DNA of 64,000 bases from Holdemania sp. Marseille-P2844 (GTDB lineage: Bacteria; Bacillota_I; Bacilli_A; Erysipelotrichales; Erysipelotrichaceae): the NCBI RefSeq assembly GCF_900120005.1, contig NZ_LT635452.1:329668-393667 (forward strand), in the 5' to 3' direction. The translations under genes were made by a program, and so were the position numbers. How positions within the stretch are numbered: the stretch's first letter is position 1; every line of letters starts with the position of its first letter. The notes under the pieces were generated by a model. It was given only the letters and a program-made list of their open reading frames with translations. It did not search any database and was not told where the DNA came from. Shown here piece by piece: positions 1-51,495 of the stretch.

Positions 1-568
1 CCGCGTTAAGAAAGAGAAAAGACATTGAAGCATCAACCCCTTTGACAGAGCGAAACTCGTCAAAACAGAGATGAGGGGGAAGAAAATTCCGCTGGACTTT
101 AAAATCCTGATAGAGCTGTTGAAGAAGGGAATTCACCGTAGCATGAGAAACAGAGTGACGGAAAGCGATATCTTTTTCAGAAGTCTTCATCTTGGCGTCG
201 AGGGCAATGGAGAGACGAGTGTTATTGGAAATGAAACAATGAGGGAGAACGATGGAAGTCGAAGCCGTAAAAGTATGGCCGCAATGTTTACAAAGGAAGC
301 GTTGTTTTTTGAGGCGGAGATAAGCGGGGCGGCGGGAAACGGAAGGCAGGGTGATGAGGGAGGATTTCGTACCATGTTTGATGATAGCCGAGCCGGGGTT
401 GGAGGACCCGCAGAGAGGACAGGAAGAGGGAGGGTCATAAGAAAGCGAGCCGGAAAAGACAAGGGAGTCAACACCACGAATCGACTGAGAAGAGACACAA
501 TCCTCAGAGAAATGAAGATGAGGGTCTTTTAAATTGAGAACAGATACGATAGAATGAGTAATGGACAT
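1..568 (-). CDS. ISL3-family transposase, N-terminal part (cut by window edge)
   Basis: Read on the minus strand from ATG at 566-568, this is one uninterrupted frame of 189 codons that leaves the window. It starts MSITHSIVSVLNLKDPHLHF, has a CPLCGS...CKHCGHTF zinc-binding pair (about residues 52-110), and ends at the window edge with CFDEFRSVKGVDASMSF. That last block is the characteristic start of the ISL3 catalytic domain (first Asp of the DDE set). A ribosome binding site (AGAAAGGAAAT on the minus strand) lies 6-7 bases upstream. Open frames at 71-532 (+) and 187-498 (-) are shadows of this gene. The catalytic remainder lies outside the window, so intactness cannot be judged. Confidence 0.9.
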   Translation of the reverse strand, partial: MSITHSIVSVLNLKDPHLHFSEDCVSSQSIRGVDSLVFSGSLSYDPPSSCPLCGSSNPGSAIIKHGTKSSLITLPSVSRRPAYLRLKKQRFLCKHCGHTFTASTSIVLPHCFISNNTRLSIALDAKMKTSEKDIAFRHSVSHATVNSLLQQLYQDFKVQRNFLPPHLCFDEFRSVKGVDASMSFLFLNA

Positions 569-692
569 AGTGAGATTTCCTTTCTGTAATTTGTGGTGAT
601 TTTATTGTAACGGAAATTCTTACCTATGTCTCTTTTTTTATGCTCAAGAAAAAAAGGCGTTGGTTTCCACCAACACCAAAATTTATAGAACC
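1..692 (-). mobile_element. ISL3-type insertion sequence, promoter-proximal end
   Basis: The element carries the transposase above. Its outer end is probably near 692, where the minus strand reads GGTTCTATAAATTTTGGTG, resembling ISL3-family terminal repeats. A small hairpin (GTTGGT/ACCAAC, about 662-674) sits just inside this end, between IS end and transposase start. The other end and any target duplication are outside the window, so the exact boundary is an inference. Confidence 0.65.
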
Positions 693-741
693 AGTATTGT
701 AGATGAACAATTATCAGAGAACTCAGATTCTATCCGGGAAA

Positions 742-811
742 TTCGAATATGGAAAATTTGATGAAGTTCACATGTCAATGCCATACTTTTCCCATAATTT
801 TTTCTTATAAT
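742..811 (+). promoter_or_regulatory. Promoter region of sRNA 1
   Basis: A perfect TATAAT lies at 806-811, preceded at 791-798 by CCCATAAT. The same CCCATAAT sits at the identical distance (15 bp) before the -10 of sRNA 2. GAAGTTCAC at 763-771 is also shared with the sRNA 2 upstream region. No good -35 hexamer is visible, which fits an activator-dependent promoter. Confidence 0.5.
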
Positions 812-817
812 AAAATT

Positions 818-957
818 GTCCAAAGGATAAGACCAACAGAAAATCCCTTCAGGACAAGATGTTTTTCCCCTCTCAACCTTAATAATAATCAGGTGATCAA
901 GGCTCCCCTCCTTGGTTGCCGGAGAAAGCCCGCCTTCCCCTGGCGGGTTTTCTTTTC
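818..957 (+). ncRNA. Putative small RNA 1 with UCCC loops
   Basis: From the expected start near 818 the transcript has an AAAGGA purine segment, AAAATCCCTTC, an unpaired TTTTTCCCCTCTC stretch (861-873), then two hairpins. Hairpin 1 is a 7-bp stem 896-902/910-916 with loop CTCCCCT. Hairpin 2 is stem CCCGCC 929-934 with GGCGGG 942-947, loop TTCCCCT, followed by TTTTCTTTT (948-956), a Rho-independent terminator. No convincing ORF matches it (the frame 749-1039 has no ribosome binding site and runs through the terminator). Architecture and loops match two further units at 2054-2226 and 2354-2534. It resembles LhrC/csRNA-type regulators that pair through C-rich loops with Shine-Dalgarno sequences. 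That function is inferred. Confidence 0.6.
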
Positions 958-975
958 CTGCAAGGAAGACGGCGG

Positions 976-981
976 TATAAT
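976..981 (+). promoter_or_regulatory. -10 box before the esterase gene
   Basis: TATAAT at 976-981 lies immediately downstream of the sRNA 1 terminator and 38 bases before the esterase reading frame. This suggests the esterase has its own promoter. A matching -35 is not clear. Confidence 0.45.
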
Positions 982-1013
982 GAAGAAAAGGAGAGCGACG
1001 GATTCCTTCGTTA

Positions 1014-1970
1014 ATGGCATCAGGATCCGCCGGATATAGAATTATGGAAGCAAAATTTTATACTTATGAAGAATTTCCTGCCTCTGAACTCACCACGCCG
1101 CACATGACAGAGATTGAAATTGATCTTCATCAACGAAGCGTCCACGCTTTGCCGCTTCAGGAATATGCCAGGGCAAAAGATCGGGGACTCCACATCCGGT
1201 TCTTACAGCCGTCATTTGTCGCTGAGGAAATGATAGAAGGGCAGCGCTTTCCCATTCTTCTGTTTATCCAGGGTTCAGGTTGGCGTTGGCAGAATGTGGA
1301 ATCCAACATTTGCAGTCTGGGAAAGATTGCCGTCCACGGCTTTATCGTGGCGATGATCGAATATCGCGGCAGCGAATGCGAGCCTTTCCCCGCGCAGCTG
1401 ATGGATGTCAAACGAGCGATTCAATATGTCCGCGCGCAGGCGCCAGGCCTTCACGGCGATCCCGATCAGCTGATTTTATGGGGCGGTTCCTCGGGCGGAC
1501 ATTTAGCGGCCCTGACGGCAGTCAGCGAGGCTGCCGGGGCGTTTCCCCTGGAAAACGGCGAAGCGTTTCTGCCCGCAATGAAAGGCGTGATCGACTTCTA
1601 CGGTCCGGTCAATCTGCTCAGCATGGCGGATCAACTGTCAGCCAGGGAACATGCCGGCGCGGATTCCATTGCCGGAAAGCTGCTGGGCGGGATTGCGGTT
1701 AAAGACCATCCGCAGAAGGCCCGTCAGGCCTCCGTCACAACCTATATCGGCAAGGCTCCGCTGCCGCCGTTTCTGATTGTCCACGGCGATAAAGACCGCA
1801 ATGTACCCATGGCGCAGAGTGTGGAATTGATGGAAGCCTTATTGAAGGAGGGACACGAGGCTGACTTTATCAAAGTGAAGAATGCCGATCACGGCGGCGC
1901 CGGAATCTGGAACGATGTGATACTGGATCGCTGCCTGGATAAAATCCAGCTGTGGCTGAATAGAGGATAA
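1014..1970 (+). CDS. Alpha/beta hydrolase, BD-FAE/esterase-lipase type
   Basis: Serine hydrolase of the alpha/beta fold, probably an acetyl-ester or feruloyl-type esterase; the substrate is unknown. Visible motifs are LLFIQGSGWRW (oxyanion-hole region, HGGG-like but with QGSG), the nucleophile elbow GGSSGG (about residue 160), the acid loop VHGDKDRNVP (Asp, about 260), and the catalytic His in NADHGGAG (about 293). There is no signal peptide, so the enzyme should be cytoplasmic. The length of about 310 residues is normal. The start is uncertain: ATG 1014 and ATG 1044 (MEAKFYTYEEF) both lack a strong ribosome binding site, and 1044 would give a more typical N terminus. It stands alone between small-RNA units. 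Confidence 0.8.
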   Translation: MASGSAGYRIMEAKFYTYEEFPASELTTPHMTEIEIDLHQRSVHALPLQEYARAKDRGLHIRFLQPSFVAEEMIEGQRFPILLFIQGSGWRWQNVESNICSLGKIAVHGFIVAMIEYRGSECEPFPAQLMDVKRAIQYVRAQAPGLHGDPDQLILWGGSSGGHLAALTAVSEAAGAFPLENGEAFLPAMKGVIDFYGPVNLLSMADQLSAREHAGADSIAGKLLGGIAVKDHPQKARQASVTTYIGKAPLPPFLIVHGDKDRNVPMAQSVELMEALLKEGHEADFIKVKNADHGGAGIWNDVILDRCLDKIQLWLNRG

Positions 1971-1993
1971 GCCTTAAGAAATTCTTCAGGAAG

Positions 1994-2047
1994 TTCACGG
2001 AACCTTCACCTGCTTTTGATTCTTATCCCATAATCTTGCCCTATAAT
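1994..2047 (+). promoter_or_regulatory. Promoter of sRNA 2 with direct-repeat operator
   Basis: TATAAT at 2042-2047, with CCCATAAT at 2027-2034 as in sRNA 1. Upstream are direct repeats TTCAC at 1994-1998 and 2005-2009, 11 bp apart (GTTCACGGAACCTTCACC). Eleven-bp direct repeats of TTCAC type are typical of PhoP/OmpR-family response-regulator sites. The second repeat starts 37 bp before the -10, exactly as at sRNA 3. The regulator is not in this window. Confidence 0.55.
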
Positions 2048-2053
2048 ACAAGC

Positions 2054-2226
2054 ATACAAGGAAGGAGGCATCCAAGTTAAACTTCATCAGAAAAAAGCAT
2101 AAAGATAAAATTCCCTTTACAAAATAAATATTTTCCCCTCTTATTCATAAAAATAATATGCGGAGGCGGGCTTCCCCTCCCGCCTTCCGAAGAATCCTGT
2201 TCCCTCCCCTGAACAGGATTTTTTCT
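2054..2226 (+). ncRNA. Putative small RNA 2 with UCCC loops
   Basis: The expected transcript begins near 2054 with AAGGAAGGAGG, a Shine-Dalgarno-like run with no start codon after it. It is followed by AAAATTCCCTTT, an unpaired TTTTCCCCTCTTA, and two hairpins. Hairpin 1 is 2161-2170/2179-2189 (one bulged base) with loop CTTCCCCT. Hairpin 2 is a perfect 10-bp stem 2193-2202/2211-2220, loop CCTCCCCT, then a T run: a clear terminator. The 5' GGAGG is complementary to the unit's own CCTCC/CCCCTC stretches, so it could fold back. It shares promoter and layout with units 1 and 3. A reading frame is not visible. Confidence 0.65.
2193..2226 (+). terminator. Terminator of sRNA 2
   Basis: Perfect 10-bp stem AATCCTGTTC/GAACAGGATT, 8-base loop CCTCCCCT, followed by TTTTTTCT. 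Confidence 0.85.
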
Positions 2227-2293
2227 ATTATAACAACGGGCTTTAGAATAGGAACCAAATAACCAGACGGGCGTAAAGCTGAAAATGATCAAA

Positions 2294-2347
2294 TTCATCA
2301 TTTCTTCACACAAACTCCATTTTATCACCACATCGGTTTTCTATACT
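2294..2347 (+). promoter_or_regulatory. Promoter of sRNA 3 with direct-repeat operator
   Basis: TATACT at 2342-2347. Direct repeats TTCAT (2294-2298) and TTCAC (2305-2309) are spaced 11 bp, and the second starts 37 bp before the -10, the same geometry as at sRNA 2. No -35 consensus is seen. Activation by a response regulator of the OmpR/PhoP class is an inference from the repeat spacing. Confidence 0.5.
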
Positions 2348-2353
2348 GAAATA

Positions 2354-2534
2354 CAGAAAGGAGGATCGCAAAAGTTTATAAACGCTTTAAACATTTTTCC
2401 TCTTCTTAAATTTAAAAAATAATTGAGGACAGGCGCTAATCCCTGAGCGGCTGTTCTCACGCAGTCTGCCGAATCCCTGCGGCGGACCTTGCGGGACAAA
2501 GAGTTCTGTATTCCCTGACAGAGCTCTTTTCTTT
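2354..2534 (+). ncRNA. Putative small RNA 3 with three UCCC loops
   Basis: The 5' segment has GAAAGGAGG without a following start codon, then TTTTTCCTCTTCTT, then three consecutive hairpins with almost identical 8-base loops. A: 2429-2437/2446-2454, loop AATCCCTG, one mismatch. B: 2464-2471/2480-2487, loop AATCCCTG. C: 10-bp stem 2500-2509/2518-2527, loop ATTCCCTG, followed by TTTTCTTTC (terminator). Stems differ in sequence while loops are conserved. That pattern is expected if the loop is the functional part. No ORF is visible here. Confidence 0.65.
2500..2534 (+). terminator. Terminator of sRNA 3
   Basis: Stem AGAGTTCTGT/ACAGAGCTCT (one G-T pair), loop ATTCCCTG, followed by TTTTCTTTC. Confidence 0.8.
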
Positions 2535-2624
2535 CGAATTGCTTATCAGAATATCGGAAAACGGGAAGATTCGAGATTTATGGGAAAATTCAGTCAGAAT
2601 TCTGCCGTTTCCTGATTCAGAATG

Positions 2625-2633
2625 TGCTAAAAT
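2625..2633 (+). promoter_or_regulatory. Extended -10 promoter of fruK
   Basis: TGCTAAAAT, an extended -10 element, 26 bases before the start codon. No clear -35 is seen, as is usual for this promoter class. Confidence 0.55.
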
Positions 2634-2658
2634 AAATTCATGAGAAAGGGGCTTTTTT

Positions 2659-3591
2659 ATGATTTATACATGTACGTTGAATCCGTCGCTGGACTACTAT
2701 ATGGAATTCGATAAAGTCGAGCTGGGGAAAACCAACCGCAGTTCGCTGGAATACTACGAGGCCGGAGGCAAGGGCATCAATGTTTCTATCGTTTTAAATA
2801 ATCTGATGATTCCGTCCCGGGCGCTGGGCTTTGTCGGCGGCTTTACTAAGGATTTCTTCATCAGCCTGCTTCAGAAATATGAGTATATCGAACCGGTGTT
2901 CACCTTCATTGAAGGCCATACCCGGATTAACGTGAAAGTCAAAGGCGATCTGTTGGAAACGGAGCTGAACGCCAAAGGTCCGAGCATTACCGAAGAAGAT
3001 ATGCGGATGATGTTAAGACGGGTGGAACGGCTTAACCGCAGCGATATTTTTGTGCTGTCGGGCAACTGTCCGGATAATCTGGTTGATCTGACGGAAAAAA
3101 TGATTCAGCTGTGCATTGAAAACGACGTGAAGTTTGTCCTTGACGTCAATCATGAGCTGCTTCTGCGGTTGTTGAAATACAAGCCGTTTCTGGTCCGGCC
3201 GAATATCGAGGATCTGGAAACGATGTTTGACGAGGTGATTGCCGATCAGAAACAGCTGATCCATGCCGGACGGCAGTGCGCAAAGCTGGGCGCGGAGAAC
3301 GTCATCTTGATGATGGGGAAGGACGGCTCGCTGCTGATCAATCAGGACGGTGTATACCATGCCAATTCGATTGACGCTGAGGTTGTCAATTCCGTCGGCG
3401 CGGCCGACAGTATGATCGCCGGCTTCGTGATGAATTACCTGCGTTCCCGCGATATTATTACAACCTTTAAATATGCGAACTGCTGCGGCATCGCGACCGC
3501 CTTTTCCAAAGGCATGGCGACGCGTGAAAAAATTGAAAGCCTCTATGACGAAATTATCGTCACAAAGATTGACGAAAACGAAGAGGCTTGA
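2659..3591 (+). CDS. fruK: 1-phosphofructokinase-like PfkB-family sugar kinase
   Basis: Ribokinase (PfkB) fold kinase that most resembles 1-phosphofructokinase (fructose-1-phosphate to fructose-1,6-bisphosphate); tagatose-6-phosphate kinase is the alternative. It begins MIYTCTLNPSLDY, has EAGGKGINVS (about residues 34-43, substrate binding) and the C-terminal signature NSVGAADSMIAGF (about 248-260) with the catalytic Asp. The usual GAGD anion hole here reads GAAD. Length 310 is normal. AAAGGGG is the ribosome binding site. Normally fruK is next to a DeoR regulator and a fructose PTS; neither is here, so it is an orphan with its own promoter. Confidence 0.85.
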   Translation: MIYTCTLNPSLDYYMEFDKVELGKTNRSSLEYYEAGGKGINVSIVLNNLMIPSRALGFVGGFTKDFFISLLQKYEYIEPVFTFIEGHTRINVKVKGDLLETELNAKGPSITEEDMRMMLRRVERLNRSDIFVLSGNCPDNLVDLTEKMIQLCIENDVKFVLDVNHELLLRLLKYKPFLVRPNIEDLETMFDEVIADQKQLIHAGRQCAKLGAENVILMMGKDGSLLINQDGVYHANSIDAEVVNSVGAADSMIAGFVMNYLRSRDIITTFKYANCCGIATAFSKGMATREKIESLYDEIIVTKIDENEEA

Positions 3592-3722
3592 TATCATAGA
3601 CCAAGATGATGCGAGGTGAGAGGATGTACAGAAAATAAGACGAAGAAAATTGAATTTCTGAAATCTTGTTTTTTGTCGTTCTCTTTTTTTACCGTTTACC
3701 GCTTCCTAAGGAGGTGGTGCGG

Positions 3723-5264
3723 ATGTTAACTGTAAATCAACTTACAATTAAGACCCTCAAAGATAGAATTCTGATCGATCATTTAAGCTTTACTTGCGTC
3801 GCAGGCGATAAACTGGCGGTGATCGGTGAAGAGGGGAATGGCAAAAGCACGTTGTTTAAAGCAATTTACAATCCAGACTTGATTTCAGAATATACCGTGA
3901 TGGAAGGGACGATTGACCGCCGCGGGGCGGTGATCGGCTATCTTCCTCAGGCGCTGGACGCACGGTGGCATGAAACGTCAGGCCTGGATTTTTGTATGAG
4001 CGAAGCCCCTTCGGAAATTCCCGATTATGAGAAGATCGGCGAGCTGTACGTGCGGCTGGAAGACGTCGGGGCCAGCGCTGATTTGCTGGAAAGAAAAATG
4101 GGTCAGCTGAGCGGTGGGGAAAAGGTCAAGCTGCAGCTGGTCAAACTGATGTTAAACGAACCAGATCTGATTTTAATGGACGAGCCGACCAACGATCTCG
4201 ATCTGGAAACGCTGGCAATTTTAGAACGCTTTATTTTGGACAGCCCGGCCGGCATTCTGTTTGTTTCCCATGATGAAACGCTATTGGAACATTGCGCCAA
4301 CGGCATTCTGCATCTGGAACAGATCGTCCGCAAGACCCAGGCCCGGCATACGTTTGTGCATCTGGGCTATGCTGATTACGTGCGGCAGCGCGAAGCCCTG
4401 GCAAACCGGCAGAATCAGCTGTCCGTCAAGGAACATCAGGAATATGCGGCGCAGATGGAGCGTTACCGGCGGCTATACCAAAGCGTCGATCATGCGCTGA
4501 ATTCCGTCTCCCGGCAACAGCCGCATGCCGCCAAGATGCTCAAGCGCAAGATGCGGTCGGTTAAGGCGTTAGGAGAACGGCTGGAAGACAAACCGCTGAC
4601 GCATAAGTTTGAAGGTGAGGAACAGATTGAATTGTTTTTTGATCCGGAAGTCAGGATTGCCAATTCCCGCAAACAGATTCTGGATTTCCATCAGCCGCAG
4701 CTCTGGGCAGGGATGCATCTTTGCGCGAAGGATATCAACCTTCAGATTGTCGGGCCGCAGAAGGTCGCAATTATCGGACCCAACGGCTGTGGGAAAACGA
4801 CGCTGCTGCGGCTGATCTGGAAACAGCTGAAGGATCGGAGAGATTTGCGTGTCGGCTACATGCCGCAGAATTACGAGGAACAGCTGCCGATGGATAGAAA
4901 TCCGGTTGACTTTTTAAGCGAAGGTCAGGATCAGGCATTCCGCACGCGGATTCAGAATCATTTAGGTTCCCTGAAATTTACGCCGGAGGAGATGCGGCAG
5001 CCGATGGGGACTTTCTCCAGCGGCCAGAAAGCCAAGATCCTGTTGGTGAAGCTGGTTGTCGATCACAACGACGTGCTGCTTCTGGACGAGCCGACGCGGA
5101 ATTGTTCGCCGTTATCCGCCGGCCAGATCCGCGCACAGCTGGCGTCGTTTCCCGGCTGCATCCTCGCCGTCAGTCATGACCGCCGCTTTTTAGCCGAGGT
5201 GACGGAGCGGATTCTGCGATTGACGCCGCAGGGGCTGGAAGAAGATTCAACGATTGAATTCTAG
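3723..5264 (+). CDS. ABC-F family ATPase (two ABC domains, no membrane part)
   Basis: Soluble ribosome-associated-type ABC-F protein of 513 residues. Domain 1: Walker A GEEGNGKST (about 38-46), signature LSGGEKVKLQL, Walker B LILMDEPTNDLD. The linker is long and charged (about 225-300). Domain 2: Walker A GPNGCGKTT (about 354-362), signature FSSGQKAKILL, and Walker B LLLDEPTRN with Arg-Asn in place of the usual Asn-Asp-Leu-Asp. The start at 3723 is chosen for AAGGAGG at 3707-3713; the longer frame from 3666 has no site. Members act as translation factors or protect ribosomes from antibiotics. Which applies here cannot be told. Confidence 0.88.
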   Translation: MLTVNQLTIKTLKDRILIDHLSFTCVAGDKLAVIGEEGNGKSTLFKAIYNPDLISEYTVMEGTIDRRGAVIGYLPQALDARWHETSGLDFCMSEAPSEIPDYEKIGELYVRLEDVGASADLLERKMGQLSGGEKVKLQLVKLMLNEPDLILMDEPTNDLDLETLAILERFILDSPAGILFVSHDETLLEHCANGILHLEQIVRKTQARHTFVHLGYADYVRQREALANRQNQLSVKEHQEYAAQMERYRRLYQSVDHALNSVSRQQPHAAKMLKRKMRSVKALGERLEDKPLTHKFEGEEQIELFFDPEVRIANSRKQILDFHQPQLWAGMHLCAKDINLQIVGPQKVAIIGPNGCGKTTLLRLIWKQLKDRRDLRVGYMPQNYEEQLPMDRNPVDFLSEGQDQAFRTRIQNHLGSLKFTPEEMRQPMGTFSSGQKAKILLVKLVVDHNDVLLLDEPTRNCSPLSAGQIRAQLASFPGCILAVSHDRRFLAEVTERILRLTPQGLEEDSTIEF

Positions 5265-51377: not shown

Positions 51378-51409
51378 ACCAGGTATGGTTTACTATTCCT
51401 GGTCTTTTT
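51378..51409 (+). terminator. Short hairpin plus T run upstream of SAM riboswitch
   Basis: ACCAGG/CCTGGT with 14-base loop then CTTTTTA. The T run overlaps the 5' strand of the riboswitch P1, so it may be an overlapping structure rather than a separate terminator. Confidence 0.3.
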
Positions 51410-51495
51410 ATCAAGAATGAGGGAGAGAGTCAGCTCGACGAACTCATACCAACCTGCTTGAAAGCAAGGTGGTAATGCTGGCAACGATAAGAAAG
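51403..51495 (+). ncRNA. SAM-I (S-box) riboswitch before metK
   Basis: The leader reads TATCAAGAATGAGGGAGAGA, then CTCGACGAACTCATACCAAC, and GGTGGTAATGCTGGCAACGA, matching SAM-I aptamer positions. P1 is formed by 51403-51412 and 51486-51495. An expression-platform terminator lies 15 bases downstream. Binding of S-adenosylmethionine should switch off metK. Confidence 0.9.

Follow-up and report, generated by a model that had tools for sequence, protein, structure and literature searches.

A multicopy family of candidate small RNAs with conserved C-rich loops in Holdemania and other Erysipelotrichaceae

Introduction

The RNAs closest to those described here are found in Listeria and Streptococcus. 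The LhrC RNAs of Listeria are multicopy, carry three UCCC sites (in a hairpin loop, a single strand and the terminator loop), depend on the two-component system LisRK and act independently of Hfq (PMC4132741). The csRNAs of Streptococcus are likewise multicopy and complementary to Shine-Dalgarno sequences; CiaRH drives them from strong promoters that carry an 11-bp direct repeat for an OmpR-type regulator close to the -10 box, the CiaRH regulon includes htrA, and streptococci are without Hfq (PMC3091779, PMC4132741). The UCCC motif also binds ribosome sites in RsaE, RNAIII and SprD of Staphylococcus and in FsrA of Bacillus (PMC4132741).

Here we analyzed a window of 64,000 nucleotides from a Holdemania genome (G000:C15:329668-393667), in which a first-pass annotation had claimed a cluster of three sRNA units, and compared it with the relatives H. 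filiformis, H. massiliensis and an uncultured Holdemania. The three units were recovered, but the cluster is larger than claimed: the array on contig C15 comprises seven units, of which three lie in the window and four upstream.

Results

Three units in the window share one layout

Units 1-3 all lie on the + strand and are built alike: each comprises a -10 box, a C/U stretch and a set of two or three hairpins that ends in a U-tract terminator (Table 1). The seven UCCC-loop hairpins that had been claimed are present, with TCCC in 7/7 loops and all on the + strand, and so are the Rho-independent terminator and the C/U stretch that had been assigned to each unit. On the window's + strand a gapless hairpin scan detected six hairpins with TCCC loops, every one within units 1-3; the seventh unit hairpin has an internal loop, which puts it outside such a scan, and was detected by RNAfold. 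The same scan detected three scattered TCCC-loop hairpins on the - strand, and dinucleotide-shuffled windows (n=8, 64 kb) yielded 0-2 each. TCCC loops were carried by 6/6 gapless hairpins inside the units versus 0.9% of the window's other hairpins. Unit 1 is kept in H. filiformis and H. massiliensis, unit 2 has orthologues in three genomes (G001-G003) and unit 3 is kept in three other Holdemania species.

Table 1. Positions of the predicted sRNA units and their elements, numbered from the first nucleotide of the window
Feature	Positions	Strand	Basis or remark
Unit 1 promoter: degenerate 11-bp-phased repeats CACAT, GCCAT, CCCAT; -10 TATAAT 806-811	765-811	+	sequence, register alignment
sRNA unit 1, predicted transcript	818-957	+	fold z = -3.2 (RNAfold); model R1 match 7e-10
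Unit 1 C/U stretch TTTTTCCCCTCTC, unpaired	862-874	+	predicted fold; conserved
Unit 1 hairpin, loop CTCCCCT 903-909	892-920	+	RNAfold, hairpin scan
Unit 1 terminator hairpin and U-tract, loop TTCCCCT 935-941	923-957	+	RNAfold, hairpin scan
Unit 2 promoter: TTCAC-N6-TTCAC 1994-2009, two weaker phased repeats, 4-nt gap, -10 TATAAT 2042-2047	1994-2047	+	
sRNA unit 2, predicted transcript	2054-2225	+	fold z = -3.0 (RNAfold)
AAGGAGG near predicted 5' end of unit 2	2062-2068	+	no start codon at ribosome-binding distance
Unit 2 C/U stretch TTTTCCCCTCTT, unpaired	2131-2142	+	predicted fold
Unit 2 hairpin, loop CTTCCCCT 2171-2178	2162-2187	+	RNAfold, scan, compensating stem changes
Unit 2 terminator hairpin, loop CCTCCCCT 2203-2210	2190-2225	+	RNAfold, scan, stem compensation
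Unit 3 promoter: TTCAT-N6-TTCAC 2294-2309, weaker phased repeats, -10 TATACT 2342-2347	2294-2347	+	
sRNA unit 3, predicted transcript	2354-2535	+	fold z = -6.5 (RNAfold)
AAAGGAGG near predicted 5' end of unit 3	2357-2364	+	no start codon at ribosome-binding distance
Unit 3 C/U stretch TTTTTCCTCTTCTT	2394-2407	+	partly paired with 5' purines in predicted fold
Unit 3 hairpin a, loop AATCCCTG 2438-2445	2425-2458	+	RNAfold
Unit 3 hairpin b, loop AATCCCTG 2472-2479	2460-2494	+	RNAfold, hairpin scan
Unit 3 terminator hairpin c, loop ATTCCCTG 2510-2517	2498-2535	+	RNAfold, hairpin scan

The array extends upstream of the window

The four further units, A, B, C and D, are of the same kind as units 1-3 and lie in the upstream 14-kb stretch (L010), where TCCC hairpins number 12 on the + strand and 0 on the - strand. 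An eighth copy, a paralogue of unit 2, was found on another contig (G000:C11:286117-286350). Units A (L010:4788-5031) and B (L010:7616-7857) are near-identical, and two copies of the A/B type are also present in H. filiformis and H. massiliensis. In these two species units D and 1 adjoin with no transposase insertion.

The surroundings hold several other elements. Between units D and 1 (L010:8650-10600 and window 1-620) lie a transposase gene of the IS200 type and another transposase-like gene, and upstream of unit A Rfam matches mark a group II intron (L010:2859-4699). The stretch between units A and B starts with a gene for a BlaI/MecI-type regulator; were the sRNAs linked through this neighbor to beta-lactam sensing genes, such a link would suit envelope stress.

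Loops are conserved over varying stems

Hand alignment of nine orthologous hairpin groups gave an identity of 95.8% for the loops versus 68.2% for the stems, and TCCC was kept in 39/39 of the aligned loops. To assess stem compensation, we counted the alignment cells that had changed on both sides of a stem. There were 11 in alignment A2 (shuffle mean 4.7), 14 in A5 (4.6 in shuffles) and 48 in A6, which holds 21 full-length sequences (17.0 in shuffles); slid controls, which account for relatedness where shuffles ignore it, gave 0-11. Rows out of register in the MAFFT hairpin alignment were left out of A5, and the HP2 pairs of A2 were picked likewise. The loops are near-invariant in the three other Holdemania species, and the loop and stem identities, together with the compensated stem changes, bear out the earlier proposal that selection acts on the loops over varying stems.

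The sRNA promoters share a box with response regulator and htrA genes

Among the 24 Holdemania sRNA promoters, 15 carry TTCAC-N6-TTCAC with at most one mismatch (reversed-pattern control, 0), and in 14 of these 15 the box starts exactly 48 nt before the -10. Of the remaining units, 6/24 have a two-mismatch box only and 3/24 have none. With a 4-nt gap left before the -10, most of the promoters resolve into four 11-bp repeats. The exact box occurs 12 times in the own genome, compared with 6 times for the reversed control, and is found there upstream of three sRNA units, two response-regulator/kinase operons and one htrA gene.

Across the family, the box lies 38-71 nt before the start codon in 20/30 regulator loci (10 exact); the controls gave three matches, all of which overlap the box itself. 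It is found upstream of 15/30 htrA genes (3 exact; controls 0), the other half being without a recognized box. In front of the regulator genes, a -10 is matched best (4.15 of 6 vs ~2) at a distance of exactly 26 nt from where the box begins. Since 48 = 26 + 22, the boxes of the sRNAs and of the regulators stand in the same 11-bp register. The regulators belong to the OmpR/PhoB type (NCBIfam, PDB), and the protease to the DegP/HtrA type. None of the named NCBIfam equivalogs was reached by the regulators, the best (PhoB, YycF, RpaB) scoring far below their cut-offs. We infer from these promoter sequences that the sRNAs, htrA and the regulator operon probably share one regulon through one or other of the two paralogous OmpR-type regulators.

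At two further loci (L018, G000:C15:139722, and L022, G000:C16:170051) the box also precedes genes for a regulator of the MarR type accompanied by an ABC transporter and for a DivIC/FtsL-like small protein; both are possible members of the regulon. The idea of a PhoB/phosphate regulon was dropped, as the pstS-type matches in the genome were weak and the box on them was not established.

Related RNAs occur across the family

A covariance-model search of the kind that the first-pass annotation had proposed extended the RNA well beyond Holdemania. Model R1, built from Holdemania unit 2 types, gave weak matches in other genera, many of which show the whole layout on reading. Model R2, a second covariance model, was built from non-Holdemania sequences only; at E<=0.01 it matched 55/273 genomes and 30/60 genera of the family, with a best value of 1e-13. 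Searched over the class, R2 matched 14/296 genomes, six of them in the family, and over the phylum 9/245, two of them in the family. Of its matches outside, some look real (G028, two loci) and most read as chance. The two models also recognize each other's members: R2 matches Holdemania unit 2 (L002 at 3e-5, the window copy at 0.005), and R1 matches R2-type members (L044 at 1.5e-5, others at ~1e-3). Twelve loci without boxes or shared layout were set aside as chance matches (L045, L046, L049, L050, L054, L057, L059, L101, L103 and L107-L109). Common descent of all family members is likely, though short of proof, since the distant ones are supported by layout more than by their weak scores.

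In other genera, full-length members fold into a 5' hairpin (GCAAGG...CCTTGC) and a further stem, leave TATCCCCTTAA single-stranded and close with a terminator whose loop is C-rich. Several genera have two units in tandem (L058, L104), and two neighboring matches each were found in G009, G049 and G056. In one genus group (L079, L081, L082, L084-L086, L088-L090, L093, L095, L099, L105) the sRNA always lies between divergent murF and HIT-protein genes. Elsewhere it stands beside typA, thioredoxin or esterase genes or in the Holdemania array. Because the neighbors differ between lineages, the RNA has no fixed cis partner.

A 5' purine element without a start codon

AGGAGG follows shortly after the predicted start in 17/24 Holdemania units; it is absent from unit D and weak in unit 1. 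None of the 24 units has a start codon at ribosome-binding distance after these purines, which rules out a small-protein reading for Holdemania. In the predicted folds of units 2 and 3 the AGGAGG pairs with the C/U stretch, and in other genera the same purines form an arm of the 5' hairpin. The element may possibly stabilize the RNA, mask the RNA's own sites or bind 30S subunits. At L058:1360-1570, the first of two tandem units carries AAGGAGGTGAACATG and a 20-codon frame, and the second has the same purines without ATG; the frame is possibly that of a dual-function RNA or of a decayed leader peptide.

Pairing with ribosome sites

We computed duplex energies on the ribosome sites and on internal sites of the 52 window genes. 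Those of the loops were only modestly better with ribosome than with internal sites, and most loops did no better than composition-matched shuffled loops at ribosome sites. The unpaired stretches clearly favored ribosome over internal sites, with ss3 falling below -8 kcal/mol at 26 versus 9 of 52. The pairing is thus plausible and, at this level, unspecific, with no target that could be named. A search for Hfq found no match in 26 genomes of the order, whereas 5/14 control genomes matched.

Discussion

Our preferred reading, to which we give a probability of roughly 0.7, is that the units are separate trans-acting sRNA genes of a multicopy family, induced together with htrA by the regulator and masking Shine-Dalgarno sequences without Hfq. 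At the level of sequence, the gene structure, the array, conservation, covariation and the shared promoter boxes with their register are well supported; that the RNAs are made, that the regulator binds the boxes, which signal induces the response and that targets are paired is what we infer. In the mechanism that we propose, envelope stress, a signal suggested by the link to htrA and by the LisRK and CiaRH precedents, would activate an OmpR-type response regulator. Bound to the phased TTCAC repeats, the regulator would then turn on several sRNAs together with htrA and its own operon. Each RNA (~140-180 nt) would offer two to four interchangeable C-rich sites, in hairpin loops, the terminator loop and the unpaired stretch, and any of these could pair with a purine-rich Shine-Dalgarno sequence and block translation initiation with no need for Hfq.

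The likeness to LhrC and the csRNAs that had been suspected extends to the arrays, the placement of the motif and promoter boxes shared with a two-component system and htrA. Like LhrC1-5 of Listeria monocytogenes, the Holdemania RNAs are multicopy and of similar length, one RNA carries UCCC in a hairpin loop, a single strand and the terminator loop, and the several copies are partly in tandem, seven on C15 and one on C11. LhrC is controlled by the two-component system LisRK (PMC4132741), and the promoter box that the Holdemania units share with an OmpR-type regulator gene is at most suggestive of LisRK-like control. Unlike LhrC, for which the LisR consensus was then unknown (PMC4132741), the Holdemania system has a recognizable TTCAC 11-bp repeat, and it further differs in its copy number (as many as eight), in its varied stems and two or three hairpins per unit, in the 5' AGGAGG and in that no Hfq gene was found.

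As with the csRNAs, one box appears to be common to sRNAs, htrA and the regulator operon, in the same register. In contrast, the CiaR box TTTAAG-N5-TTTAAG is absent from the 24 unit promoters, which have the TTCAC-N6-TTCAC type, and the recognition helix reads VVEVYVSKVRKKL in CiaR versus RTLDTHIKLLRKNL and RTVDTHIKMLRHNL in the two paralogous Holdemania regulators. In the csRNAs two stem-loops flank the conserved pairing region; the Holdemania RNAs also have such regions in the loops. RsaE, RNAIII, SprD and FsrA differ in being single-copy, with other structures and regulators, and showed no sequence or model match. With Rfam 15, only a SAM riboswitch (51405-51493, + strand) reached its gathering score in the whole window, positions 1-4000 had no LhrC match at E<=5, and the relatives' loci matched group II introns only at E<=0.05. 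The open-licence literature searched on Holdemania and Erysipelotrichaceae described no such sRNA, and LhrC, the csRNAs and the staphylococcal RNAs were what it returned. The RNAs probably work like LhrC and the csRNAs, but the absence of the CiaR box and helix and of any model match places them in neither family. The suspicion that the lineage had no such family on record thus holds within Rfam 15 and the papers searched, and we conclude that this is a real conserved RNA family of a known functional kind that, as far as we searched, was previously undescribed.

Other readings of the units were weighed against the same evidence. If they were cis-acting leaders or attenuators of the genes downstream, one would point to unit 3, which precedes a pfkB-type sugar kinase gene in all Holdemania, and to the clade that keeps the RNA beside a HIT-protein gene. 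However, each unit has its own promoter and a strong terminator, unit 2 has unit 3 and not a gene behind it, the genes next to units 1 and 3 have, by eye, promoter-like sequences of their own past the terminator, and neighbors vary among genera, those of the C11 paralogue being different again, all of which makes such a role highly improbable. We also regard it as rather unlikely that the C-rich loops are protein-binding sites and the RNAs sponges that act without base pairing, as RsmY/Z do for CsrA. Sponges typically have several equivalent loops per RNA and occur in many copies, but CsrA binds GGA and the loops are UCCC; since promoters, terminators and conservation all indicate a + strand transcript, the complement, which bears GGA, would remain untranscribed. 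The C-rich loops and C/U-rich single strands moreover suit pairing with ribosome sites.

The 5' AGGAGG raises the question of whether the RNAs have sister RNAs or the ribosome as their main target, with the element binding the 16S anti-Shine-Dalgarno or sister loops and the array so titrating 30S subunits or buffering itself. Its frequency in the absence of any start codon and its pairing with the C/U stretch in units 2 and 3 speak for this, its absence from unit D and weakness in unit 1 against it, and as the purines lie in a 5' hairpin arm in other genera, a structural or stabilizing role is simpler; we hold such titration or buffering to be very unlikely. In a broader and rather unlikely version, the RNAs would hold both halves of the ribosome code, namely anti-Shine-Dalgarno-like loops and a gene-less 5' Shine-Dalgarno mimic that recruits or parks 30S subunits or pairs with sister loops, thereby protecting the RNA or tuning the array. 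That the units are merely terminator-like hairpins spread as functionless repeats by chance or duplication could be suggested by the near-identical units A and B, but the loops persist while the stems turn over with compensation, the enrichment is strand-specific and the promoter register is fixed, which leaves that explanation with a negligible chance.

Our searches found no described regulatory sRNA for the Erysipelotrichaceae. If the trans-acting reading is right, these bacteria would be a third Firmicute lineage in which a two-component system of its own drives a circuit of HtrA protease and multicopy C-rich sRNAs. The different DNA box and the RNA sequences, unrelated as far as tested, would then argue for convergence and for a general plan on which envelope-stress responses are built in the absence of Hfq. 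For the Erysipelotrichaceae, which are common gut bacteria, the analysis provides an RNA family ready for covariance-model searches and a regulator motif.
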